Of a stretch of 64,000 nucleotides of DNA, positions 6,933-18,585 are shown piece by piece. This DNA comes from Streptomyces sp. NBC_01335 (lineage in GTDB: Bacteria; Actinomycetota; Actinomycetes; Streptomycetales; Streptomycetaceae). Numbering within the stretch: the first letter of the stretch is position 1; each line of letters begins with the position of its first letter. The DNA is taken from the NCBI RefSeq assembly GCF_035953295.1, contig NZ_CP108370.1:1860001-1924000 (forward strand), given 5' to 3'. Below the pieces are notes generated by a model that saw only the letters and a list, made by a program, of their open reading frames with translations, did not search any database and had not been told where the DNA came from. Position numbers and translations under genes: made by a program.

Positions 6933-7094
6933 ATGATGGGGTGCTTCTCGGTAAGCGGAAGGCCCGTTCCAACATGCGGACATTGCATCGCTGAGGATGG
7001 GGTCGCAGTCGGAGAGATCAACGCCCGGGGAGCCGCAGAGAGCAGGCGCCGTTGCCTGCGGTGTCTGAGGCTCATGCCCGGCAGCCATGCGTTC

Positions 7095-7110
7095 GAAACC
7101 AGGAAGTAAC
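7095..7110 (+). promoter_or_regulatory. Candidate GlnR half-site pair distal to gltB
   Basis: GAAAC-CAGGAA-GTAAC on the plus strand places a b-type and an a-type GlnR half-site at the correct 6-nt spacing, about 240 nt upstream of the gltB start. The flanking half-sites expected for a full four-part box are not present. Confidence 0.3.
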
Positions 7111-7384
7111 GATTACTTATGTGGAGTCGCGCATAGGCTCTCATTTTACGTTGCGTGCACCGCATCCGCCCAGGGGCGAAAACCGGGACGTACGTCACAC
7201 GTATTTCCGGCGTGTTGCGGGTTGCTTTCCGGGGCGTTGTATGGATGGGCCGTACGGGTGAGCGCTCCGTCGCGGTCCGTACCCCCGATGGGCGGCGCCC
7301 CGTCGGGGAGTCCCGGCAGCCCGGAGGGCGGCCAGCCGGAGGACAGCCACCCGGAGGACAGCCGCCGGAGGCCGACCCGCTGAA

Positions 7385-7411
7385 GGACGACCGCCCGCAG
7401 GGCGGCCGTCC
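7385..7411 (-). terminator. Terminator of the VIT-family gene
   Basis: 12-bp stem (GGACGACCGCCC / GGGCGGCCGTCC, one G-U pair) with a 3-nt loop, beginning 16 nt after the stop codon of the VIT gene. Confidence 0.55.
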
Positions 7412-7427
7412 GGGCGAACCCGTCGGG

Positions 7428-8162
7428 TCAGCCGCCGACCGCCACCCCGAAGAGCCCGCCGAGGCCGTAGGTGAGCGCGGCGGCGGCGCCGCCCAGCGCC
7501 AGCTGCCGCAGCCCGCTGAACCACCAGCTGCGCGCCGTCACCCGGGCCACCACCGCGCCGCAGCCGAAGAGGCCGAGCAGCGCGAGCAGGACGGCGGGCC
7601 AGAGCGTGGTGGCGCCGAGCAGGTACGGCAGCAGCGGCAGCAGGGCGCCGAGCGAGAAGGCCATGAACGAGGAGCCGGCGGCGAGGAGCGGCGAGGGCAG
7701 GTCGCCCGGGTCGATGCCGAGCTCCTCGCGGGCGTGTATCTCCAGGGCCTGTTCCGGGTCCTCGGAGAGCTGCCGGGCGACCTCGGCGGCCAGCTGCGGT
7801 TCGACGCCCCGGGAGATGTAGAGGTCCGCCAGCTCCCGCATCTCGTCGTACGGGTGCTTGACCAACTCGCGCCGTTCGACGTCGAGTTCGGCCTCCACCA
7901 GCTCTCGCTGCGAGGCGACCGAGGTGTACTCGCCGGCCGCCATGGAGAAGGCGCCCGCGGCGAGGCCGGCCAGCCCGGTGATGACGAGGGTGCGGTGCGA
8001 GACGTCGCCTCCCGCGACCCCGGTCATCAGCGCGAGGTTCGAGACCAGGCCGTCCATCGCGCCGAACACGGCCGGGCGCAGCCAGCCGCCGTTGACGTCC
8101 CGGTGGGTGTGGTTGTCGCGGTGCGCCTCGTGCAGTGCGGCGTCGGTCTCGATGATGGACAC
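7428..8162 (-). CDS. VIT1/CCC1 family membrane transporter
   Basis: This 244-residue integral membrane protein belongs to the VIT1/CCC1 family, whose characterised members move Fe2+ and Mn2+. The N-terminal motif NGGWLRPAVFGAMDGLVSN and the following glycine-rich first membrane helix are typical. A hydrophilic middle segment rich in Glu and His (about residues 85-150) corresponds to the cytosolic metal-binding domain, and three hydrophobic helices end the protein. I take GTG 8162 as the start because GGGGAG lies 4 bases upstream; the open frame runs on to 8288 without family similarity. It is divergent from the glycohydrolase operon. An iron-box-like sequence 128 nt upstream fits an iron-linked role. 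Confidence 0.85.
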   Translation of the reverse strand: MSIIETDAALHEAHRDNHTHRDVNGGWLRPAVFGAMDGLVSNLALMTGVAGGDVSHRTLVITGLAGLAAGAFSMAAGEYTSVASQRELVEAELDVERRELVKHPYDEMRELADLYISRGVEPQLAAEVARQLSEDPEQALEIHAREELGIDPGDLPSPLLAAGSSFMAFSLGALLPLLPYLLGATTLWPAVLLALLGLFGCGAVVARVTARSWWFSGLRQLALGGAAAALTYGLGGLFGVAVGG

Positions 8163-8592
8163 AGTGCTCCCCAATCCGCCGACGGCTCCGCAGCCCCTCC
8201 GCCGCCGCCCGACACCATCGAAAGTACGCACGAAAATCGGCGCCCGCCAGCAAGGCAGGCCGTACTTACCACCGCTCTGACCAGGCAAGACAGGTATGGC
8301 TCACCTTCCTTGGAGAGCCTTGGCGGGGCCTCGTCGGCGCCCTTTCGGGCGGGTCCGTCCCCGTTCACCCGTCCGGCTGCCCCACCGGCGGCGCCCGTCA
8401 TCCTTTCGGGTAAAGCTTTGGAAGGCGGATCCCCGCCCCTGCCTGGTTTTCCCGTTCCTCCGTCCAGCACCGCGCTTCGTTTCGTCTAGCTTCATCCGCA
8501 TGGCCCTTTTATTCCGGTTGTCAGCCTTCCCGGCCGTCGGGCGTGGCACAGATCGGACAGAGGGAAATCGTGTACGGACGAAGGGTCGACCG
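8163..8592. other. Divergent gap between the VIT gene and the glycohydrolase operon
   Basis: No gene seen. It contains the iron-box-like site at 8290-8308. Comparatively A+T-rich patches lie near 8215-8240 and 8395-8520 and probably hold the two divergent promoters, for example a TAGCTT -10-like hexamer near 8490 for the rightward operon. GAAGGG at 8580-8585 is the ribosome site of the first operon gene. Confidence 0.45.
8290..8308 (-). promoter_or_regulatory. Iron-box-like (DmdR/IdeR) site upstream of the VIT gene
   Basis: ACAGGTATGGCTCACCTTC matches 13 of 19 positions of the Streptomyces DmdR1 iron box TTAGGTTAGGCTCACCTAA, including the core AGGT..GGCTCACCT. It lies 128 nt upstream of the VIT/CCC1 start codon. 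Regulation is inferred from the match and the likely metal substrate. Confidence 0.45.
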
Positions 8593-9780
8593 ATGGAACC
8601 GATCACGGGCAAGGACCGGGCCCGGGGCGCATTGCTCGGGCTGGCCGTCGGGGACGCGCTGGGTGCCCCGGCGGAGAACCTGAGACCGTCGGAGATCCGC
8701 GCCCGGTGGGGCCGGATCGAGGGTTTCGTCAGCGAGGACCCGGCCGGCACGGACGACACCGAGTACGCGATCTTCTCCGGGCTGCTGCTGGCCCGCCATG
8801 GTTCGGCCCTCACCGTCGCCGACGTGGACCGGGCCTGGCACCACTGGATCGCCGATCTGGACGAAGGGCCCTTCCGGGGCGCCGGGTTCAGCGAGCGCGG
8901 CACGCTGGAGAACCTGCGCCGGGGGCTGGCCGCGCCGATCTCCGCGCAGCACCGGCACGCGTGGAGCGACGGGCTGGCGATGCGCGCGGCCCCGTTCGGG
9001 GTGTTCGCGGCCGGGCGGCCCGCCGAGGCGGCCCGGCTGGTGGCGATCGACGGGCAGGTCAGCCACGACGGCGAGGGGATCTACGGCGGCCAGGCGGTCG
9101 CGGCCGGGGTGGCGGCGGCGATGGTCGGTGCGGGCCCGGCCTCGGTGATCGCGGCGGCCCTGTCGGTGGTGCCGATGGACTCGTGGACCGCGCGGTCCCT
9201 GCGCCGGGCGGTGACCGCCGCCCAGCGCGGCTACCCGGACCGGCTGACGGCCGAGCGCGCGGTGCGGTCGGCGGTGGTGATCGGCGGCTACCCGTGGACG
9301 GACCTGGCGCCGGAGGCGGTGGGGCTGGCGTTCGGCGCCTTCACGGCCGCGCGGGGCGATTTCCGGGCGGCCGTGCTGATGGCGGTCAACATGGGGCGGG
9401 ACGCGGACACCACGGCGGCGGTGGCGGGCGCGCTGGCCGGGGCCTGGCAGGGGACGGCGGCGATCCCCGCGGAGTGGGCCACCGCGATCGGTCCGGTACG
9501 TGGCAGCTGTCTGCCCTCGATGCGGGGCTACCACGTGCTGGACGTGGCGGACCTGCTGACCGCGGGAGACCCCGCGGGCGCACCGGAGGAGGCCCGGCAG
9601 GCGGCCGCTCCCCCGCCCGGTCCGGACCGTGGGGCCACCGGCCCGGAGCCGGCCGGCCGGGAGCGGGCGGACCGAAAGGTGCCGGACCGGGAAGCGCCGG
9701 AGCGGGAGGCGCCCGGCCGGGAGCGGGCCGACGAGCCGGCGCCGGTCTCCCTGCTGCACGCGGAAGGGGCGCTCCGATGA
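8593..9780 (+). CDS. ADP-ribosylglycohydrolase family protein 1
   Basis: First gene of a seven-gene chain. The 395-residue protein has the ADP-ribosylglycohydrolase (ARH/DraG) fold, an all-helical binuclear Mg hydrolase that cleaves N- or O-glycosidic bonds to ribose. It shows GALLGLAVGDALG at 12-24, the first metal motif TDDTE near 52 and the second metal motif GRDADTTA near 268. All expected ligands are present, so it is probably active. After about residue 330 it ends in a low-complexity tail rich in Arg, Glu, Pro and Asp, including DREAPEREAPGRER repeats. ATG 8593 was chosen for the GAAGGG site 7 bases upstream. The stop overlaps the start of the next gene (ATGA). The physiological substrate is unknown. 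Confidence 0.85.
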   Translation: MEPITGKDRARGALLGLAVGDALGAPAENLRPSEIRARWGRIEGFVSEDPAGTDDTEYAIFSGLLLARHGSALTVADVDRAWHHWIADLDEGPFRGAGFSERGTLENLRRGLAAPISAQHRHAWSDGLAMRAAPFGVFAAGRPAEAARLVAIDGQVSHDGEGIYGGQAVAAGVAAAMVGAGPASVIAAALSVVPMDSWTARSLRRAVTAAQRGYPDRLTAERAVRSAVVIGGYPWTDLAPEAVGLAFGAFTAARGDFRAAVLMAVNMGRDADTTAAVAGALAGAWQGTAAIPAEWATAIGPVRGSCLPSMRGYHVLDVADLLTAGDPAGAPEEARQAAAPPPGPDRGATGPEPAGRERADRKVPDREAPEREAPGRERADEPAPVSLLHAEGALR

Positions 9781-11021
9781 CCGCCGCCGGCACTGAGGCC
9801 GCGCGCCCGGGGGCGGAGCACCGGGAGACGACCCGGCGGGCGCGGATCGAGGGCCTGCTGCTGGGGCTCGCCGCCGGGGACGCGGCCGGCTGGCCCGCCG
9901 CCCGGCACCGGGCGGCCCGGATGCCCGAGTGGACCCGGCGGCTCACCCGGGAGCTGGACACTTTCGCCGAGCAGAACGCGACGACCACGCTGCCGGTGCC
10001 GATCGCGCTGAACCAGCCGCCGGAGCCGTTGCGGCTCGGCCCCTCCGACGACGCCGAGTGGGCCGCGTTCGCCGCCGGTACGGTGCTCGCGGCGGCGGCC
10101 GACGAGGCGTACGGGCTCGCGCCCTCCCGCCGGGTGCGCGACGCGGTGGACCGCGCCTGGAACGCGCTGGCCGCCAAGGTCGCGGCAGCCAGCGAGCGCG
10201 CGCCGGAGGTGGAGGCGGCGGTGCTGCCGCTGCGCGCCCGGATCTCGGTGCGCGCCGGGCTCGGCAACCTCGCCGCCGGGCTGCGGCCCCCGGCCACCGG
10301 CCACGACAACCCGCACTACTTCGACGACGCCGCCTGCGTGCGGGCCGCGGTGCTCGCGGTGGTGCACCCGGGCGATCCGGCCGCCGCGGCGGCGCTCGCC
10401 GAGTTCGACGCCCGCTACACGCAGGACGGCGACGGGGTGCACGGCGCGCGGGCCATCGCCGCCGCGATCGCCGAGGCGCTCGCCGGGGCGGACGTGAGAG
10501 CGGTGGTGGACGCGGCGCTCGCGCAGCTTCCCGAGGGCACCGAGATCGCCCGCAACGCGGTGCACGCGGTGCGCCTGGCACGGGAGTTCGCGGACGAGCC
10601 CGCCGGGGCGTTCTCGCTCGTGCCGGTGCTGGAGCATCAAATCGTCGACCACGTCTACAGCTACGGGATCGCGGCCGCCGAGACGGTGCCGGTGGCGCTG
10701 GCGCTGACCACCGCGGCGCGGGGCCAGATCGCCCAGGCGGTCCCGGCCGCGGCGTGTCTCTCCCGGGTCGCGGATTCGGCGCCCGCGCTCGCCGGGGCGC
10801 TGACCGGGACGCTCGGCGGCATCCGGACCGTACCGTCCGGGTGGCGGGAGGCGTGCCGCACCCTCGCCGGATGTGCGCTGCCCCGGCTCGCGGGCATGGA
10901 TCTGATCGAACTCGCCGGGCTGCTCGCAGCCACGGAACAGGCCGCCCCGGGTGGACAATTCAGTCATGATGCACGCAGTGAGTACTCAACACCCCGTATC
11001 GGACACGCTTTCCCTCGATGA
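9777..11021 (+). CDS. ADP-ribosylglycohydrolase-like protein 2, metal site degenerate
   Basis: This 414-residue paralogue of its neighbours keeps the N-terminal GLLLGLAAGDAAG motif. The first metal motif is altered to SDDAE (residues 90-94), and the usual G-x-D-x-D-[ST] motif near the C-terminus is replaced by SRVADSAPALAG (about 328-339), which lacks two of the acidic ligands. It probably cannot bind the second Mg normally and may be a pseudoenzyme or a partner subunit. The ATG overlaps the stop of gene 1. Its 3' end overlaps the start of gene 3 by about 56 nt, an unusually long overlap for this chain, so the last about 20 residues are probably not conserved. Confidence 0.75.
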   Translation: MTAAGTEAARPGAEHRETTRRARIEGLLLGLAAGDAAGWPAARHRAARMPEWTRRLTRELDTFAEQNATTTLPVPIALNQPPEPLRLGPSDDAEWAAFAAGTVLAAAADEAYGLAPSRRVRDAVDRAWNALAAKVAAASERAPEVEAAVLPLRARISVRAGLGNLAAGLRPPATGHDNPHYFDDAACVRAAVLAVVHPGDPAAAAALAEFDARYTQDGDGVHGARAIAAAIAEALAGADVRAVVDAALAQLPEGTEIARNAVHAVRLAREFADEPAGAFSLVPVLEHQIVDHVYSYGIAAAETVPVALALTTAARGQIAQAVPAAACLSRVADSAPALAGALTGTLGGIRTVPSGWREACRTLAGCALPRLAGMDLIELAGLLAATEQAAPGGQFSHDARSEYSTPRIGHAFPR

Positions 11022-12150
11022 ACGAGTGAGCGGTGCCCTTGTCGGCGCCGCCGTCGGCGATGCCCTCGGGGGCCCGGTCGAAGGCTGGACCTCCGAGCAG
11101 ATCGCGGAGCGGCACGGCGGGCGGGTGCACGGGATCGTCGGCCCCTGGTACGGCGACGACTGGCGCACCGCCCGCCCGATCGCCCCGTACCACAAGGGTG
11201 ATGGGCACGTCACCGACGACACCTTGATGACCCACGCGCTGGTACGGGTCTACGACGCGGTCCGCGACCACCTGGACGCGTACGCGGTCGCCACGCACCT
11301 GGTCCCGGACCTGATCTCCACCCCGCGCTGGATTCCGGAGCTGGAGGCGGAGGCGCTGCCGTTGCAGCGGATCTTCCTCGCGGAGAAGTGGCTCGTGGCG
11401 CGGGTGCACTACGGGCACGTCGACCCGCGCGAGGCGGGCAGCGGAAACATCGTCAACTGCGGTGCGGCGATGTACATGGCGCCGGTCGGCCTGGTCAACG
11501 CGGCCCACCCGGCGGCGGCTTACGCGGAGGCGCTGGAGGTCGCGGCGCCGCACCAGTCCAGTTACGGCCGGGAGGCGGCCGGGGTGTTCGCGGCGGCGGT
11601 CGCCGCGGCGTGCACGCCGGGCGCCACGCCCGTCTCCGTGGTGGAGGCGTGCCTGGCGCTCGCCAAGGACGGTACCCGCGCGGCGATCGAGGCGGTGTGC
11701 GAGGAGGCGGTCCGGCACGGCGACCCCGAGTCGGCGCTGGTGCCGCTGCGGGAGGCGGTCGCCCCCTTCGACACGGTCGGCCCGGACTACCGCTCCCCTT
11801 CGCTGGGCGCCCGCCGGCCGTCCCGGCTGCACTCGATCGAGGAACTGCCCGTCGCCCTGGGCATGCTGCTGGCCGGCGGCGGCGACTACCGCCGTACGGT
11901 GCTGGGTTCGGTGAACTACGGGCGCGACTGCGATTCGATCGCCACCATGAGCGGCGCGATCGTCGGCGCGCTGTACGGGGAGGCGGCGGTGCCCGAGGAG
12001 TGGGCGAAGACGGTCGCCGAGGCGAGCCGGCTCGACCTGCACGCCCCGGCGCGGACCCTGACGGCGGTGGCGCGCGAGGTGTTCGCCGCCGACACCACCC
12101 GCCGCCGCGCCCATGAGGCGGCCTTCGCGGTACTGGCGGGTGAGCGGTGA
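10966..12150 (+). CDS. ADP-ribosylglycohydrolase family protein 3
   Basis: ARH-fold hydrolase of 394 residues. Motifs: GALVGAAVGDALGGP near the N-terminus, first metal motif VTDDT near residue 83, and second metal motif GRDCDSIA near 319, so the binuclear site looks intact. The first motif is followed by LMTHALV, as in many ARH proteins. The start could be GTG 10951, ATG 10966 or ATG 10969; none has a clear ribosome site, which fits re-initiation from gene 2. The stop overlaps the GTG of gene 4 (GTGA). The substrate is not evident from sequence. Confidence 0.85.
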   Translation: MMHAVSTQHPVSDTLSLDERVSGALVGAAVGDALGGPVEGWTSEQIAERHGGRVHGIVGPWYGDDWRTARPIAPYHKGDGHVTDDTLMTHALVRVYDAVRDHLDAYAVATHLVPDLISTPRWIPELEAEALPLQRIFLAEKWLVARVHYGHVDPREAGSGNIVNCGAAMYMAPVGLVNAAHPAAAYAEALEVAAPHQSSYGREAAGVFAAAVAAACTPGATPVSVVEACLALAKDGTRAAIEAVCEEAVRHGDPESALVPLREAVAPFDTVGPDYRSPSLGARRPSRLHSIEELPVALGMLLAGGGDYRRTVLGSVNYGRDCDSIATMSGAIVGALYGEAAVPEEWAKTVAEASRLDLHAPARTLTAVAREVFAADTTRRRAHEAAFAVLAGER

Positions 12151-13550
12151 ACGTACGGCTGACCTGGGTCCAGCCCGAGGACCTGATCGGGCACGAACTG
12201 CGCCAGGCCGAGCAGGACGGCCGCGACGCCTCGGAGATCGCGGCGCGGTGGTACGCGGCCGGGGGGCCGCCCGCACCGGAGCGGGCCGGGGCCTCCGAGC
12301 CGCCCGCACCGCCCCGGCTGCGCGCGCTCGCCGAGCGACTGCTCGACGAACTCGCCCTTTTGGAGAGCCCGTTGGCCGCCGAGGAGCCCACGGACCTGGC
12401 GGTGATCCGGGCGCTCTGCCCGCGGTGGCCCACCCCGCCGGCCGCCCGGCCCGCCCCCGACCGGGGCCGGCTGCACGCCGGGTGGCTGGGCCGGGCGGCG
12501 GGCTGCCTGCTCGGCAAGCCGGTGGAGAAGCTCCCGCTGGAGGGCATTCGCGCGCTCGCCCGCGCCACCGGCAACTGGCCGCTGTCCGACTGGTTCACCG
12601 CCCGGGGCGTACCCGCCGGGCTGCTCGCCGCGTACCCGTGGAACCGCCGCTCGGGGCCGACCTCGCTGGCGGAGAACATCGACGGGATGCCGGAGGACGA
12701 CGATCTCAACTTCCCGCTGCTGACGGTGGTGTTGCTCCGGCGGCACGGGCGCGGCTTCACCACGGAGGACCTCGCGCGGCTCTGGCTGGACGAGTTGCCG
12801 GCCGGCCGGGTGTTCACCGCCGAGCGGATCGCGTACCGCAACCTGCTGGACGGGGTGGAGCCGCCCGGGACGGCCCGGTACCGCAACCCGTTCCGGGAGT
12901 GGATCGGGGCGCAGATCCGTGCCGACGTGCACGGCTGGACCTGCCCGGGCGATCCGGGCGCGGCGGCGGAGCAGGCGCACCGCGACGCGGTCCTCACCCA
13001 CACGGCGAACGGCGTGTACGGGGCGATGTTCACGGCGGCGGCGCTGGCGGAGGCGGCCGGCGGGGCGAGCGACGTGCACGGCTGCCTGGCCGCCGGGCTG
13101 CGGGTGGTGCCGCCCGGGTCCCGGTACGCGCGTGCGGTGCGGCTCGGCATCGAGGCGGCCGGGGCGGCGAAGGCCGCGGGGGCGGCAGGGGCTGCGGGGA
13201 CGGCGGGCGGCTTCGACGCCGTCGTCGACCGGCTGCACGAGGTCTACGCCGCCACGCACCACTGGGTGCACGTGCTGCCCAACGCGGCGCTGCTGGCCGC
13301 CGCCCTCACCCACGCCGACGGCGACTTCACCCGCTCGGTCGGCAACGCCGTGATGGGCGGCTGGGACACCGACTCGAACGGGGCGACCGCCGGGTCCCTC
13401 GCCGGGCTGCTGGCGGGCGGTCCGGGCGCCCTGCCGGACCGCTGGACCGCCCCGCTGAAGAACCGGCTCGCCACCTCGGTGCCGGGATTCGACGGCATCG
13501 GCTTCGACACCCTCGCCGAACAGACCTATCAGGAGGCTCTGCGCCCATGA
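12147..13550 (+). CDS. ADP-ribosylglycohydrolase family protein 4
   Basis: This 467-residue protein has an about 110-residue N-terminal extension rich in Pro, Ala and Glu ahead of the ARH domain. The domain begins with GWLGRAAGCLLGKP, differing from the GDA.G form of the others. The first metal motif is EDDDLN (near 183) and the second GWDTDSNGATAG (near 405), both with acidic ligands in place. This belongs to a different ARH subfamily from proteins 1 and 3, so the operon encodes divergent rather than freshly duplicated hydrolases. GTG 12147 overlaps the previous stop. The kinase gene follows with an ATGA overlap. Confidence 0.85.
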   Translation: MNVRLTWVQPEDLIGHELRQAEQDGRDASEIAARWYAAGGPPAPERAGASEPPAPPRLRALAERLLDELALLESPLAAEEPTDLAVIRALCPRWPTPPAARPAPDRGRLHAGWLGRAAGCLLGKPVEKLPLEGIRALARATGNWPLSDWFTARGVPAGLLAAYPWNRRSGPTSLAENIDGMPEDDDLNFPLLTVVLLRRHGRGFTTEDLARLWLDELPAGRVFTAERIAYRNLLDGVEPPGTARYRNPFREWIGAQIRADVHGWTCPGDPGAAAEQAHRDAVLTHTANGVYGAMFTAAALAEAAGGASDVHGCLAAGLRVVPPGSRYARAVRLGIEAAGAAKAAGAAGAAGTAGGFDAVVDRLHEVYAATHHWVHVLPNAALLAAALTHADGDFTRSVGNAVMGGWDTDSNGATAGSLAGLLAGGPGALPDRWTAPLKNRLATSVPGFDGIGFDTLAEQTYQEALRP

Positions 13551-14431
13551 CCCGTATCGCGGTGCTCGGCAGCATCAACATGGATCTCGTCGCCTACGTC
13601 GCACGGGCGCCCGCACTCGGCGAGACCGTCGCCGGGAGGGAGTTCCGTACGGTACCCGGCGGCAAGGGCGCCAACCAGGCGGTCGCCGCCGCGCGGGCGG
13701 GCGGGGAGGTCGCGATGATCGGCGCGGTCGGCGCCGACGCGTACGGCTCGCAGTTGCGGGGCGGCCTGGAGAGCGCGGGGATCGACACCGCTCTCGTGCG
13801 GACGGCCGAGGGCGCGAGCGGCACGGCGCACATCGTGGTCGACGACTCCGGCGCCAACGCGATCGTGGTGGTGCCCGGCGCGAACGGCACGTTCACCGCA
13901 CTCGGCCCGGCCGAAGAGGAGGCGGCGGCCTCGGCCGATCTGCTGCTGCTCCAGCTGGAGCTGCCGCTCTCCGCCGTGACCGAGGGGGCGCGGGCCGCGC
14001 ACGCCCGGGGCGTGCGGACCATCCTCACCCCGGCCCCCGTCCAGCCGCTGCCGGACGAGCTCCTGGACCACGTCGACCTGCTGGTCCCCAACGAGCACGA
14101 GGCGGCGCAGCTCTCCGGCTACGAGGATCCGGAAGCCGCCGCGCGGGTCCTGCTCCGCAAGGTGCCGGAGGTCGTCATCACCCTCGGCTCGAAGGGCTGC
14201 CTGTACGCGGCCCGGGGCGCCGAGCCGGTGCGCTTCCCCGCCCTTCAGGTGACCACGGTCGACACGACCGGCGCGGGCGACACCTTCGTCGGGACGCTGG
14301 CCGTGGCCCTCGGTGAGGGGCGTCCGGTGGCCGAGGCGGTCGCCTGGGCGTCCTCGGCCGCCGCCCTCTGCGTCCAGAAGCCGGGCGCGTCCACCTCCAT
14401 GCCCTACCGAAGCGAGATCGATGCCTCATGA
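13547..14431 (+). CDS. Ribokinase-type PfkB sugar kinase
   Basis: 294-residue carbohydrate kinase of the PfkB/ribokinase family, expected to phosphorylate ribose or a similar pentose with ATP. The N-terminal signature GGKGANQAVAAARAGG begins at residue 38, and the C-terminal catalytic signature DTTGAGDTFVGTLA contains the base aspartate. Overlapping ATGA junctions on both sides place it inside the glycohydrolase operon, where it would act on sugar released by the hydrolases. Ribokinase itself is the best guess. Ribose specificity is not proven, and no ribose transporter genes accompany it. Confidence 0.85.
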   Translation: MTRIAVLGSINMDLVAYVARAPALGETVAGREFRTVPGGKGANQAVAAARAGGEVAMIGAVGADAYGSQLRGGLESAGIDTALVRTAEGASGTAHIVVDDSGANAIVVVPGANGTFTALGPAEEEAAASADLLLLQLELPLSAVTEGARAAHARGVRTILTPAPVQPLPDELLDHVDLLVPNEHEAAQLSGYEDPEAAARVLLRKVPEVVITLGSKGCLYAARGAEPVRFPALQVTTVDTTGAGDTFVGTLAVALGEGRPVAEAVAWASSAAALCVQKPGASTSMPYRSEIDAS

Positions 14432-15639
14432 CCGAATCCGGGACCACCCCCACGCACACTCCTCTGTCGGGCCTGCGGGTCCTGGACCTCGCCACCCTCT
14501 TCGCCGGTCCGCTCGCGGCGACCATGCTCGGTGACTTCGGCGCCGAGGTGATCAAGGTCGAGCATCCGCGCAAACCCGATCCTTCGCGCGGTCACGGCCC
14601 CGCGAAGGACGGGGTCGGCCTCTGGTGGAAGCTGCTGGGCCGCAACAAGCGCAACCTCACCCTGGACCTGTCCAGCCCCGGCGGGCGCGAGGTGCTGCTG
14701 CGGCTGGCCGCCGAGACCGATGTGATCATCGAGAACTTCCGGCCCGGGACCCTGGAGCGCTGGGGCCTCGGCTGGGAGGAGCTGGAGGCGGTCAACCCGC
14801 GGCTGGTGCTGACCCGGGTGACGGCCTTCGGGCAGTTCGGCCCGTACTCGCACCGGCCGGGGTTCGGGACGCTCGCCGAGGCGATGAGCGGTTTCGCGTC
14901 GATCACCGGTGAGCCGGAGGGGCCGCCGACGCTGCCGCCGTTCGGCCTCGCCGACTCGATCGCGGCGCTCGCCACCGCGTACGCCGTGATGGCCGCGCTC
15001 GCCGGGCGCGACCGCACCGGGCGGGGGCAGGTGGTCGACATGGCGATCATCGAGCCGATCCTGACGGTGCTGGGCCCGCAGCCGCTCTGGTTCGACCAGC
15101 TCGGCCATGTCCAGCAGCGCACCGGCAACCGCTCGCGGAACAACGCCCCGCGCAACACCTACCGCACCTCGGACGGCCAGTGGGTCGCGGTCTCCACCTC
15201 GGCGCAGTCGATCGCCGAGCGGGTGATGCGGCTGGTCGGGCGCCCCGAGCTGATCGACGAGCCGTGGTTCGCCTCGGGCGCGACCCGGGCGGAGCACGCG
15301 GACGAGCTGGACGGGGCGGTCGGGTCGTGGATCGCCCGGCACACCCGGGACGACGCGCTCGCCGAGTTCGAGAAGGCGGAGGCGGCCATCGCCCCCGTCT
15401 ACGACGTGCGGGACGTGATGGAGGACCCGCAGTACCGGGCGCTGGACAGCGTGACGGAGGTGGACGACCCGGAGCTGGGGCCGCTGCGGATGCAGAACGT
15501 CCTCTTCCGGCTCTCCGAGACTCCGGGCGGCATCCGGTGGGCGGGCCGCCCGCACGGGGCCGACACCGAGGAGATCCTCACCGAGCTCGGCCTCTCCGGC
15601 GAGCGGATCGCGGCACTCCGTTCTCAGGGGGCGCTGTGA
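14428..15639 (+). CDS. CaiB/BaiF family (class III) CoA-transferase
   Basis: 403 residues, the usual length for a class III CoA-transferase, which moves CoA between two carboxylic acids through an aspartyl intermediate. The N-terminal VLDLATLFAGPLAATMLGDF followed by GAEVIKVEHP is characteristic. GRGQVVDMAIIEP holds the predicted catalytic aspartate near residue 205. The ATG overlaps the kinase stop, and the stop overlaps the GTG of the lyase gene. Next to a CitE/HpcH-type lyase it suggests CoA activation of an organic acid followed by C-C cleavage. The acid cannot be named from sequence. Confidence 0.88.
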   Translation: MTESGTTPTHTPLSGLRVLDLATLFAGPLAATMLGDFGAEVIKVEHPRKPDPSRGHGPAKDGVGLWWKLLGRNKRNLTLDLSSPGGREVLLRLAAETDVIIENFRPGTLERWGLGWEELEAVNPRLVLTRVTAFGQFGPYSHRPGFGTLAEAMSGFASITGEPEGPPTLPPFGLADSIAALATAYAVMAALAGRDRTGRGQVVDMAIIEPILTVLGPQPLWFDQLGHVQQRTGNRSRNNAPRNTYRTSDGQWVAVSTSAQSIAERVMRLVGRPELIDEPWFASGATRAEHADELDGAVGSWIARHTRDDALAEFEKAEAAIAPVYDVRDVMEDPQYRALDSVTEVDDPELGPLRMQNVLFRLSETPGGIRWAGRPHGADTEEILTELGLSGERIAALRSQGAL

Positions 15640-16559
15640 CGGCGGCCGAGGCGCGCCCGCGCCCCACCGGGTCCGTCGCGCCCGGCGACACCTCCTCGTA
15701 CGACACGTACGACTCGACTCCCGTGCCGCTGACCTGGCTCTACGTCCCCGGGGACCGGCCGGAGGTGGTGCTCAAGGCGCTGGGCGCGGGGGCGGACGTG
15801 GTGATCGTGGACCTGGAGGACGCGGTCGCCCCGGGCCGCAAGGAGTACGCCCGGTCCGCGACCGCCGAGCTGCTCACCGATCCGGTGACCTGCGCCGAGG
15901 ACGCCGTGCCCGTCCATGTGCGGGTGCACGGGGAGGACGACGTGCGGGCGCTCGCGGGGCTGCCCGGGCTCTCCGGGATACGGCTCCCCAAGGTCACGCA
16001 CGCGGCGTCCGTGCACCATGTGGCGGCGCTCGCCCCGAGCGTTCCGCTCTATCCGCTGCTCGAATCGGCGCTCGCGATCGAGCACGCCTACTCGATCGCC
16101 TCGGCCCACCACGACGTGCGGGGCATCGCGATCGGCGAGTCGGACCTCCGCGCCGATCTGGGCGTACGGGACGACGTCGGGCTCGACTGGTCGCGCAGCC
16201 GGATCGTGGTGGCGGCGCGGGCTGCCGGGCTGGAGCCGCCGACGCAGTCGGTCTTCCCCGACGTACGCGACCTGGACGGGCTCTGGGCCTCCTGCGGACG
16301 GGGGCGGGCGCTGGGGATGCTGGGGCGGGCGGCGATCCACCCGCGCCAGCTGCCGGTGATCGAGCGGGCCTTCCGGCCGACCGACCAGGAGCTGGAGGCC
16401 GCCGAGGAGATCGTGGCGGCGGCCCGTACGGACGCGGGCGCGCTGGCGCTGCCGGACGGCCGGTTCGTGGACGCGGCGGTCGCCGCCGCCGCGCACCGCA
16501 CCCTGGCCCTCGGACGGCGGACGGCCGGGTCGGCCGGGTCGGGGGCGCCCGTCGGCTGA
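15636..16559 (+). CDS. HpcH/HpaI-CitE family C-C lyase
   Basis: This 307-residue TIM-barrel lyase resembles citrate lyase beta subunits and malyl-CoA/beta-methylmalyl-CoA lyases. After about 35 unconserved residues it shows LYVPGDRPEVVLKALG and the Mg-binding IVDLEDAV. GESDLRADLGV and GRAAIHPRQLPVIERAF near the C-terminus are typical of the CitE-like branch. Stand-alone CitE-like proteins generally act on a CoA thioester, matching the CoA-transferase just upstream. GTG 15636 overlaps the upstream stop. It is the last gene of the chain, followed by a bidirectional terminator at 16599-16630. Confidence 0.85.
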   Translation: MTAAEARPRPTGSVAPGDTSSYDTYDSTPVPLTWLYVPGDRPEVVLKALGAGADVVIVDLEDAVAPGRKEYARSATAELLTDPVTCAEDAVPVHVRVHGEDDVRALAGLPGLSGIRLPKVTHAASVHHVAALAPSVPLYPLLESALAIEHAYSIASAHHDVRGIAIGESDLRADLGVRDDVGLDWSRSRIVVAARAAGLEPPTQSVFPDVRDLDGLWASCGRGRALGMLGRAAIHPRQLPVIERAFRPTDQELEAAEEIVAAARTDAGALALPDGRFVDAAVAAAAHRTLALGRRTAGSAGSGAPVG

Positions 16560-16598
16560 CGGTCCCGCCGCCCGGATCACGGAGCCGGGACACGGGAA

Positions 16599-16630
16599 AG
16601 GCCGCCGCACCCGGTGGGGTGCGGCGGCCT
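16599..16630. terminator. Bidirectional terminator between the lyase gene and lgt
   Basis: Perfect 14-bp inverted repeat (AGGCCGCCGCACCC, 4-nt loop, GGGTGCGGCGGCCT) in the 87-bp gap between two convergent genes. Confidence 0.75.
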
Positions 16631-16646
16631 CGTGGTGTCCTGGGGC

Positions 16647-17669
16647 TCAGCTCGTACCGGCGGTACGGGCGGCGCCGTCGGTCTCCGGCTCGTCCGCCGC
16701 GTCGGTCACGACGGACTCGTCCGCCGTGTCGGTCTTCGTCGCGTCGGCCCTCACCAGATCGGCCTTCGTGCCGGTCGTGCCCTCGTCCGTCGCGTCCGGC
16801 TGCGCGTCCGCGTCGGTGGCGGTGTCCGCGTTGCCGTCGACGTCGGCGTCGCCGTCCTCCCGGGGTTCCACGATCTCCTCGCGGCCCGGACGCACCTTGG
16901 CCGAGATCACCAGGTAGGTGACGGCCAGCACGAAGACGATGATCGCGGTCCACACGTTGAGCCGCAGGCCGAGCACGTGGTGGGCCTCGTCGACCCGCAT
17001 GTACTCGATCCAGGCCCGGCCGGTGCAGTACGCGGCGACGTACAGGGCGAAGGCCCGGCCGTGCCCGAGCCGGAAGCGGCGGTCGGCCCAGATGACCAGC
17101 AGGGCGACACCGACGCACCAGAGCGACTCGTAGAGGAACGTCGGGTGGTAGATGCCGGCGACCCGGTTCGGGGCCTCGCTGATCTTCAGGCCCCACGGCA
17201 GGTCGGTCCTGCGCCCGTAGAGCTCCTGGTTGAACCAGTTGCCCCAGCGGCCGATGGCCTGGGCGAAGGCGATGCCGGGGGCGAGGGCGTCGGCCCAGGC
17301 CGGCAGCGGGATGCCCCGACGGCGGCAGCCGATCCAGGCACCGACCGCGCCGAGGGAGATGGCGCCCCAGATGCCGAGGCCGCCCTCCCACACCTTGAAG
17401 GCGTCCACCCAGTTCTGGCCGTCACCGAAGTACAGCTCGTAGTCGGTGATGACGTGGTAGAGACGGCCGCCCACGAGGCCGAAGGGCACCGCCCAGACGG
17501 CGATGTCGGCCACGGTGCCGGCTCTGCCGCCCCGGGCGATCCAGCGCTTGTTGCCGAACCAGACGGCGACGAAGACACCGATGATGATGCAGAACGCGTA
17601 GCCGCGGAGCGGGATCGGGCCGAGATCGATCACGCCGGTCGACGGGCTGGGAATGAAGGCAAGGTTCAT
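16647..17669 (-). CDS. lgt: Prolipoprotein diacylglyceryl transferase
   Basis: Lgt transfers diacylglycerol from phosphatidylglycerol to the lipobox cysteine of prolipoproteins in the cytoplasmic membrane. The 340-residue protein has the expected seven membrane helices, with GRLYHVITDYE near residue 75 and GRWGNWFNQELYGR near 145, which contain the conserved catalytic arginines and the Lgt signature. After the last helix (about residue 260) comes an about 75-residue tail dominated by Asp, Thr, Ala and Glu, not needed for the fold and variable between species. ATG 17669 starts the family-like MNLAFIPSPSTGVI. It follows the DsbA-like gene after 100 bp. Confidence 0.95.
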   Translation of the reverse strand: MNLAFIPSPSTGVIDLGPIPLRGYAFCIIIGVFVAVWFGNKRWIARGGRAGTVADIAVWAVPFGLVGGRLYHVITDYELYFGDGQNWVDAFKVWEGGLGIWGAISLGAVGAWIGCRRRGIPLPAWADALAPGIAFAQAIGRWGNWFNQELYGRRTDLPWGLKISEAPNRVAGIYHPTFLYESLWCVGVALLVIWADRRFRLGHGRAFALYVAAYCTGRAWIEYMRVDEAHHVLGLRLNVWTAIIVFVLAVTYLVISAKVRPGREEIVEPREDGDADVDGNADTATDADAQPDATDEGTTGTKADLVRADATKTDTADESVVTDAADEPETDGAARTAGTS

Positions 17670-17769
17670 GACGGAACCGACGCTACCCTGCCGGGCCGCG
17701 CGGACGGCACGTCACCCGGCAACGTCTGGGTAACAGGGGTGGAATCCACCGTCCTCCGCTCCACCGTGA

Positions 17770-18585
17770 TCAGGAGGCCGGGGGCGTCGGAGTGAGGGTG
17801 CCGGCCGGCTTGCCCTTGTTCGCCTCTTCCACCCACTTCTTGAGGTTGGCGACCGAGATCTGCTCGTCGCCCTTCTTCGGGAAGATGGACTCGCCGTTCA
17901 GCAGGGCGGTCGGGGTGCCCTGGAAACCGCCCTCGCTGAACGCGGTGTTCGACTTCGCGACCCAGGCGTTGTGCTTGCCGTCCTCCACGCAGCTGCGGAA
18001 GGTCGGGGTGTCCAGCCCGGTGACCTTCTTGGACAGGTCGATCAGGGTGCTGTCCTTGCCGAAGGCGTCGTCGGTCTCGGCGGGCTGGTTGCTGTAGAGG
18101 ACGTCGTGGTACGCCTTGAACTTGCCCGCGTCCTGGGCGCAGGCGGCGGCGTTCGCGGCGCGCACCGAGCCCGTGCCGCCCATGTTGCCGTCGATGATCG
18201 TGGCCAGGTGGTACTCCACCCGGAGCTGTCCGCTCTCCGTGAGCTCCCCGATCGTGGAGCGGAACGCGCTCTCGAACTGGGCGCAGACGGGGCAGCGGAA
18301 GTCCTCCCAGATGGTGAGCGTGGACGGGGCGTCGCTCGCTCCCACCGGGATGGCGAGGTCGTCCTTCCCGGTGGCTCCGGACGGGGCGACGACGGGGGCG
18401 GCGGTGTCGTCGTCGTCCCCGGCGTTGGCCGCGATCAGGCCGATCACGGCGGCCAGCGCCAGCACGCCGACCACCGCACCGGCGACGATCAGGGTGCGGC
18501 GGCGGCGCTCGCGCGCCTTCTCCTGCTCACGCTGCTGGACGAGCCGGTCACGCGCGGCCCTTCTTCCTTCATGGTTCTCGCTCAC
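17770..18585 (-). CDS. Membrane-anchored DsbA-like thioredoxin-fold protein
   Basis: 271 residues. A very basic N-terminus (RRAARDRLVQQREQEKARER) precedes one membrane helix (about 32-52), placing a DsbA-like domain outside the cell. The redox motif FRCPVCAQF lies near residue 97. A cis-Pro-type stretch QGTPTALLNG follows near 230. Probably forms or isomerises disulfides in exported proteins. GTG 18585 is chosen because the N-terminus matches a paralogue at 57169-57981. It lies only 15 nt after the trpA terminator hairpin and has no clear ribosome site, so the messenger may be nearly leaderless. Confidence 0.85.
   Translation of the reverse strand: MSENHEGRRAARDRLVQQREQEKARERRRRTLIVAGAVVGVLALAAVIGLIAANAGDDDDTAAPVVAPSGATGKDDLAIPVGASDAPSTLTIWEDFRCPVCAQFESAFRSTIGELTESGQLRVEYHLATIIDGNMGGTGSVRAANAAACAQDAGKFKAYHDVLYSNQPAETDDAFGKDSTLIDLSKKVTGLDTPTFRSCVEDGKHNAWVAKSNTAFSEGGFQGTPTALLNGESIFPKKGDEQISVANLKKWVEEANKGKPAGTLTPTPPAS

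Follow-up and report, generated by a model that had tools for sequence, protein, structure and literature searches.

Seven genes at the locus and their conservation

We analysed a 64,000-nucleotide (nt) stretch of the 8.36 Mb genome of Streptomyces sp. NBC_01335 (contig NZ_CP108370.1, positions 1,860,001 to 1,924,000, forward strand), here called the window, and in it an operon of seven genes at positions 8593 to 16559. The operon encodes four proteins of the ADP-ribosylglycohydrolase (ARH) fold, named ARH1 to ARH4, followed by a ribokinase (RbsK), a CaiB/BaiF class III coenzyme A (CoA)-transferase (CaiB) and a CitE/RipC-like acyl-CoA lyase, and Pfam agrees with the preliminary description of this DNA on the identity of all seven (PF03747 four times, PF00294, PF02515 and PF03328; Table 1). 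According to that description all seven genes were joined by start/stop overlaps. Five of the six junctions are indeed 4-nt ATGA or GTGA overlaps, whereas the ARH2/ARH3 junction depends on the choice of start codon, being a 71-nt overlap if ARH3 starts at GTG 10951 and a 4-nt gap if it starts at GTG 11026.

By the preliminary description the seven genes are made together, and failure of the hydrolases and the last three genes to co-occur in other genomes would refute its proposal; they do co-occur. A search for ARH4 in 197 genomes of the class gave a match in 40, of which 33 were strong (E <= 2.2e-131); the other seven, with distant or fragmentary relatives only, do not enter the linkage figures. 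ARH4 lies less than 10 kb from the CitE-like gene in 32 of the 33 strong genomes, the remaining one (G121) having the two on different contigs. Among the named Streptomyces loci, which are the best 80 of at least 562, CaiB and CitE stand downstream of ARH4 in all 79 whose contig continues, L100 stopping at a contig edge. In 71 Streptomyces genomes, with presence thresholds of E <= 1e-100 for ARH4 and E <= 1e-130 for CaiB, both genes were found in 51, CaiB only in one, ARH4 only in none and neither in 19 (Fisher p 2e-16, uncorrected for relatedness and for the two genes being neighbours). In the CaiB-only exception (G585) CaiB stands next to a fragment of ARH4 where the contig stops, and counting this genome in brings those with both to 52 of 71. 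The two genes are less than 5 kb apart in 50 of the 51 genomes and 4.8 Mb apart in G566. Gene order is mostly the same in other families, one locus (L039) being reordered. Recurrence of this grouping in other Streptomyces and in other families shows that it is not due to chance, and the unit is real, old and coherent. Across 396 genomes of the phylum, ARH3 had a strong match (>600 bits) in ten, all of the window's genus, the best of the others reaching 94 bits; since strong matches are confined to one genus, the gene set looks like a feature of the class and not of the whole phylum. One Streptomyces locus (L181, in G564) looks eroded, with ARH1, ARH3, an ARH4 in two pieces, CaiB, a partial CitE and no ARH2 match, owing either to decay or to sequencing error.

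The operon is flanked by a divergent gene upstream and a convergent one downstream, the latter presumably lgt. No sigma-70-like match was found in the upstream intergenic stretch, a terminator scan requiring a T-rich tail gave no site at the downstream inverted repeat, and an Rfam search of positions 7000 to 17800 returned zero matches.

Table 1. Genes and other features of the operon and its flanks, in window coordinates
Feature	Positions	Strand	Remarks
Upstream divergent gene	7428-8162	-	Flanks the operon
Intergenic stretch between divergent gene and ARH1	8163-8592		Presumed promoter region
ARH1, ARH-fold protein, 395 aa	8593-9780	+	PF03747, 199.9 bits
ARH2, degenerate ARH-fold paralogue of ARH1, 414 aa	9777-11021	+	PF03747, 111 bits; ATGA overlap with ARH1
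ARH3, ARH-fold protein, 399 aa (374 aa from GTG 11026)	10951-12150	+	PF03747, 176.8 bits
ARH4, ARH-fold protein, 467 aa	12147-13550	+	PF03747, 163.9 bits, residues 112-425; GTGA overlap with ARH3
RbsK, ribokinase, 294 aa	13547-14431	+	PF00294 (PfkB); TIGR02152; ATGA overlap with ARH4
CaiB/BaiF class III CoA-transferase, 403 aa	14428-15639	+	PF02515 (CoA_transf_3), 419.6 bits; ATGA overlap with RbsK
CitE/RipC-like acyl-CoA C-C lyase, 307 aa	15636-16559	+	PF03328 (HpcH_HpaI), 98.7 bits; GTGA overlap with CaiB
Perfect 14-bp inverted repeat between CitE-like and convergent gene	16599-16630		Possible bidirectional terminator
Downstream convergent gene	16647-17669	-	Flanks the operon

The ARH-fold proteins, the ribokinase and the CoA enzymes

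All four ARH proteins score well above the PF03747 gathering score of 26.2 bits. The DraG equivalog TIGR02662 (cut-off 337.05) gives 72.8 for ARH1 and 51.6 for ARH3, both of which also fall far below the Tri1 equivalog cut-off, and ARH2 and ARH4 match neither model. The aspartates of the DD and DxD motifs, which we take to be the metal ligands of the fold, are both kept in ARH1 (89/89 homologues examined), ARH3 (101/101) and ARH4 (105/105). The motifs read TDD (88/89) or SDD (1/89) together with DxDT (89/89) in ARH1, TDD and GRDxDS in every ARH3, and DDD and GxDTDS in every ARH4. ARH2 keeps DD in 84 of 85 homologues, and at its second site a single Asp is found in 84 (mostly xxADSAP) and a gap in one, so that the position of ARH1 GRDADTT reads xxADSAP and DxD is lost. 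This count omits the copies of L039, which has no DD, and L046, which has DD and TDSLP, both being below a 150-bit filter. Because an Asp of the metal site is replaced (xxADSAP for GRDxDT), ARH2 is probably catalytically dead or altered and not an active hydrolase. Thus, of the four enzymes cleaving ribosyl bonds that had been proposed, ARH1, ARH3 and ARH4 retain the metal motifs, whereas ARH2 is one Asp short.

A tree of 50 proteins, comprising the ARHs of 12 chosen loci and six other ARHs of the window's genome, placed ARH1, ARH2, ARH3 and ARH4 in one clade each across families (support 99/93, 99/97, 100/100 and 100/100), with ARH1 and ARH2 as sister clades (93/89); judged from these sequences, the four look like old paralogues passed on as a set. 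ARH4 carries about 105 additional N-terminal residues, and its fold model (predicted local distance difference test, pLDDT, 80.6) matched ARH3/DraG structures at E 4.7e-6 to 5e-4, the PDB entries listed in this comparison including the ARH3 mutants D77A and D314A.

RbsK is the only one of the seven proteins above an NCBIfam equivalog cut-off, scoring 318.4 bits against 299.65 for the ribokinase equivalog TIGR02152; it does not reach the cut-off of NF008353 (269.4 vs 341). The window's genome has no second ribokinase match at E <= 1e-30, the next best by score being 34% identical. As a pathway member the kinase passes the ribokinase cut-off but is not obligatory: its gene stands between ARH4 and CaiB in 49 of 79 Streptomyces loci and is missing from the other 30. 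RbsK of the operon type occurs in 43 of the 71 Streptomyces genomes, all of which have ARH4. Seven of the eight ARH4 genomes without it have a stand-alone ribokinase, 46-51% identical, and in G564, which has only a partial ARH4 match and no operon RbsK, no stand-alone ribokinase was found at E <= 1e-30. Of the genomes that have no RbsK of the operon type, 25 of 28 carry the stand-alone enzyme, and of those that have one, 25 of 43 (Fisher p 0.007, relatedness uncorrected). The ribokinase is optional but probably a real part of the unit. Given that ribokinase uses free ribose, a plain riboside would be favoured as substrate and ADP-ribose disfavoured. The ADP-ribose-derived molecules put forward in the preliminary description fit poorly also in that there is no Nudix hydrolase among the seven genes.

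CaiB carries the segment GRGQVVDMA, which aligns with GKGQHIDMA of 4ed9, indicating that it has the GxGQxxD segment of class III CoA-transferases including its Asp, presumably the catalytic residue. The activities for which NCBIfam has named models (succinate-glutarate, formyl, mesaconate, oxalate, carnitine) are not assigned to it, the best score being 241.5 against a cut-off of 750. The CitE-like lyase likewise stays below RipC (137.9, cut-off 375) and citE (110.3, cut-off 443.4); its nearest PDB sequences are acyl-CoA lyases and citrate lyase beta chains, and its aligned motifs RPE, DLEDAV, ESA, SDL and IHPRQ are taken here to have their usual roles. By motif, both enzymes look competent. 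Itaconate degradation consists of a CoA-transferase, a hydratase and the RipC/Ccl citramalyl-CoA lyase, and the operon resembles it in having a CaiB-type transferase adjoining a RipC-like lyase; it differs in having no hydratase among its seven genes and in the low RipC score of its lyase, so that the operon does not qualify as this pathway.

CaiB-CitE pairs are found in other surroundings as well. They adjoin a permease of the DctM type, that is of tripartite ATP-independent periplasmic (TRAP) type, in G121, G131 and G037 (loci L043, L046 and L048), and homologues stand beside IclR, PF04199 cyclase and MmgE/PrpD genes in L047, L049/L167, L053 and L050. A permease of this type is as expected for a free acid, and its place beside the pair may point to a small acid resembling a di- or tricarboxylate. 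The L050 cluster also includes allantoinase-like and flavocytochrome-c-like genes.

Regulator, importer and operator in related clusters

Relatives of the operon carry a set of upstream genes that the preliminary description had missed. A LacI-type regulator, two BPD_transp_1 permeases and an SBP_bac_1 solute-binding protein, that is a sugar-type ATP-binding cassette (ABC) importer, lie before the ARH genes in three further families (f17, the Jiangella-like f19 and f36) and stand immediately upstream of ARH1 in six Streptomyces loci that were read (L101, L130 and L184-L187). All 14 loci in which about 100 bp or more are available before the cluster LacI gene carry the exact sequence GNAAACGTTTNC there (L039, L042, L045, L101, L130, L156, L159, L161, L162, L164 and L184-L187), several of which are closely related, so that these are not 14 independent cases. 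Loci with less than 50 bp upstream of LacI (L044, L055, L056, L058, L163 and L166) were left out of this count. Shuffled L039 sequence gave a mean of 0 matches, and the more distant LacI genes of L046 and L168-L170 have no such operator upstream. The cluster LacI proteins are about 53-67% identical among most loci and 45% for L039. L168-L170, from a Jiangella-like genome (G134), contain further ARH1-, ARH2- and ARH4-like genes in the midst of those for LacI, RbsK-like and sugar ABC proteins, again tying the ARH fold to sugar uptake.

The window itself lacks this linkage. It contains no GNAAACGTTTNC operator at 0 or 1 mismatch, the whole genome has 0 exact matches, and no orthologue of the cluster LacI was found in the genome, the best LacI being 35-40% identical, indicating that regulator and operator are missing together. 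An unlinked sugar ABC importer is present elsewhere in this genome (L155:7862-10838; G000:C1:6602.8-6605.8 kb), with 65%, 61% and 49% identity to permease 1, permease 2 and the solute-binding protein of the Jiangella-like cluster. A permease of this type (at least 80% identity) is found in 45 of the 71 Streptomyces, with or without ARH4. We considered whether it is the cluster's own importer, relocated, and rejected this, treating it as a paralogue: it occurs in 36 of 51 ARH4 genomes compared with 9 of 20 others (p 0.058, with G585 taken as ARH4-less), and G611 holds both the cluster-linked and the L155-type importer. Comparison of the palindromes upstream of permease 1 and of ARH1 showed nothing convincing in common. 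At the operon's chromosomal place G576 has two permeases and a binding protein alone (L180:7460-10700), with no ARH, CaiB or CitE match.

Proposed pathway and its alternatives

Given that LacI and a sugar ABC importer are linked to the ARH genes in relatives, the unit is likely to serve the breakdown of a sugar compound. We tentatively favour, at slightly less than an even chance, a catabolic operon of the LacI/ABC type for a furanoside, most likely of ribose, whose acid part would be activated with CoA and cleaved. In genomes that retain the whole cluster, uptake of the compound by the ABC importer would be controlled by a LacI repressor acting on GNAAACGTTTNC. ARH1, ARH3 and ARH4 would then hydrolyse its glycosidic bonds, ARH2 serving as a structural partner, possibly of ARH1, and not as a catalyst; the ribose released would be phosphorylated by RbsK or by a stand-alone ribokinase. 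The non-sugar part, being or becoming a small hydroxy acid, would receive CoA from CaiB, and the CitE/RipC-like lyase would cut the hydroxyacyl-CoA, probably into acetyl-CoA and a keto acid. The core of the earlier proposal, a catabolic route for a glycosylated acid, survives in this form once importer and regulator are added, the kinase is made optional and ARH2 is taken as degenerate; what is not supported is that the route is complete, as no importer or regulator is linked to it in the window. In relatives the cluster has the LacI, two permeases, SBP_bac_1 protein, hydrolases, sugar kinase and conserved operator before LacI of the sugar-utilisation operons of Actinomycetota, of the class we know as CUT1. 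It differs from these in its ARH-fold hydrolases and in the attached acid-activating and C-C-cleaving pair, and the window's copy also in having no linked LacI, operator or importer. E. coli yegTUV, of unknown function in the accessible part of PMC10819704, is described there as a nucleoside-type major facilitator superfamily (MFS) transporter, the ARH-fold YegU and the PfkB-type YegV under the GntR-type repressor YegW/GgaR, and thus likewise combines an ARH-fold gene with genes for a sugar kinase and an importer, all controlled by a single repressor. Unlike the clusters studied here, yegTUV has one ARH and neither CoA-transferase nor lyase, with GntR in place of LacI and MFS in place of ABC. 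A literature search, with most subscription papers and all bioRxiv preprints outside its coverage, returned no paper on this gene combination.

Several observations weigh against the favoured pathway. RbsK is dispensable, LacI and the linked importer are missing from 66 of the 68 Streptomyces loci whose sequence extends to the upstream flanking gene as well as from the window's genome, and the L155-type importer does not make up for this, its association with ARH4 being of p 0.058, G611 having both types and 11 of 51 ARH4 genomes showing no close importer with the threshold applied. Joint presence of ARH4 and CaiB within one genus is partly block inheritance, the two being neighbours. Trees of CaiB and CitE show no private clade, the ARH-linked copies being unseparated from those on the TRAP-type and PrpD side. 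G566 has a broken cluster (L178 and L179), with a partial ARH4 and RbsK at 8.88 Mb and CaiB-CitE at 4.05 Mb beside lgt; ARH1-3 were not found in either stretch (19.9 kb were read on the ARH side). That this is a split pair retained for its function was rejected, since the ARH side, with its partial ARH4, RbsK and no ARH1-3, is a remnant; it lends no support, and it slightly lowered our confidence in the pathway and slightly raised that in two separate modules. The Jiangella-like clusters add, after RbsK, a 638-aa protein of unclear role with an FGE-sulfatase-like C-terminus. It was dropped as a clue to the substrate, its fold model having a pLDDT of 62 and weak matches of low template modelling (TM) score to alpha-amylase-type barrels and FGE folds. 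In one genome (G014, L040:2648-5638) a ribokinase is fused to a protein of this type, with the FGE-sulfatase-like C-terminus, giving 996 aa.

The absence of a private clade also indicates that the CaiB-CitE pair is a reusable module, shared with other contexts, and bears on the possibility that one transcript holds two separate catabolic modules, ARH1-4 (with RbsK) for a glycoside and CaiB-CitE for an unrelated acid. This is unlikely in our estimate. The pairs beside DctM permeases or IclR, PrpD and cyclase genes agree with it, as does G121, where the ARH cluster and CaiB-CitE each have other neighbours on their separate contigs. Two separate modules sit less well with the finding that no ARH4 genome without CaiB exists among the 71 Streptomyces at the thresholds used, although as neighbours the two are not independent, and with a linkage that is kept across several families, in some with an intervening or reordered gene. 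Still less probable, we think, is intracellular salvage or clean-up, in which the Streptomyces unit would act on an endogenous ribosylated or furanosyl metabolite and not on an imported nutrient. It would account for the many Streptomyces loci with no LacI or permease recognised upstream, for the exact operator being present in only L101 and L130 among the 80 named loci, and for the ARH4 genomes without a close importer; it has to be set against the importer and LacI of the three other families and six Streptomyces loci, and against the 58 matches of the permease query in the window's genome alone, since other uptake systems could serve.

That the four ARH proteins are erasers of ADP-ribosylation akin to DraG and ARH3, acting on proteins, nucleic acids or small molecules, with kinase, CoA-transferase and lyase as unrelated passengers, strikes us as improbable. 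They have the fold in common with DraG/ARH3 and, in ARH1, ARH3 and ARH4, the DD and DxD(T/S) motifs. Moreover, the accessible part of PMC9411070 lists SCO2028-2031, four adjacent genes of S. coelicolor, among eight uncharacterised DraG/ARH homologues, and PMC5087735, in the portion available, counts SCO2028-2030 among seven and remarks on a surprising excess of such hydrolases. Against this stand the scores far below the DraG and Tri1 cut-offs, the missing ligand Asp of ARH2, the sugar-catabolic neighbours in relatives, and the joint presence or joint absence of ARH4 and CaiB in Streptomyces. Purified SCO2028 and SCO2030 had no activity on uracil-linked ADP-ribose (U-alpha-ADPr), which is one ADP-ribosyl linkage only, as far as the accessible text of PMC13036486 goes, and this speaks against an ADP-ribose-derived substrate too. 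These two are the presumed counterparts of ARH1 and ARH3, as judged from the four adjacent gene numbers and from the six-gene version without RbsK found at S. tendae and S. ardesiacus loci and not from sequence comparison.

Bacterial ADP-ribosylation is studied in S. coelicolor, where four of the eight DraG/ARH homologues listed appear to be the ARHs of this operon. If these are catabolic, the ADP-ribosylation inventory of S. coelicolor would shrink, and the hydrolase excess remarked on in the accessible part of PMC5087735 would be partly explained. In a wider sense, the ARH-fold proteins may be the glycosidases, three of them catalytic and one a dead heteromer partner, of an as yet undescribed pathway for a ribosylated or furanosylated hydroxy acid, and a large share of bacterial 'ADP-ribosylglycohydrolases' may be nutrient-digesting furanosidases and not ADP-ribosylation erasers, a possibility that we consider doubtful on balance but worth stating. 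Thanks to the operator and importer conserved in relatives, the substrate can be found by ordinary genetics and metabolomics.

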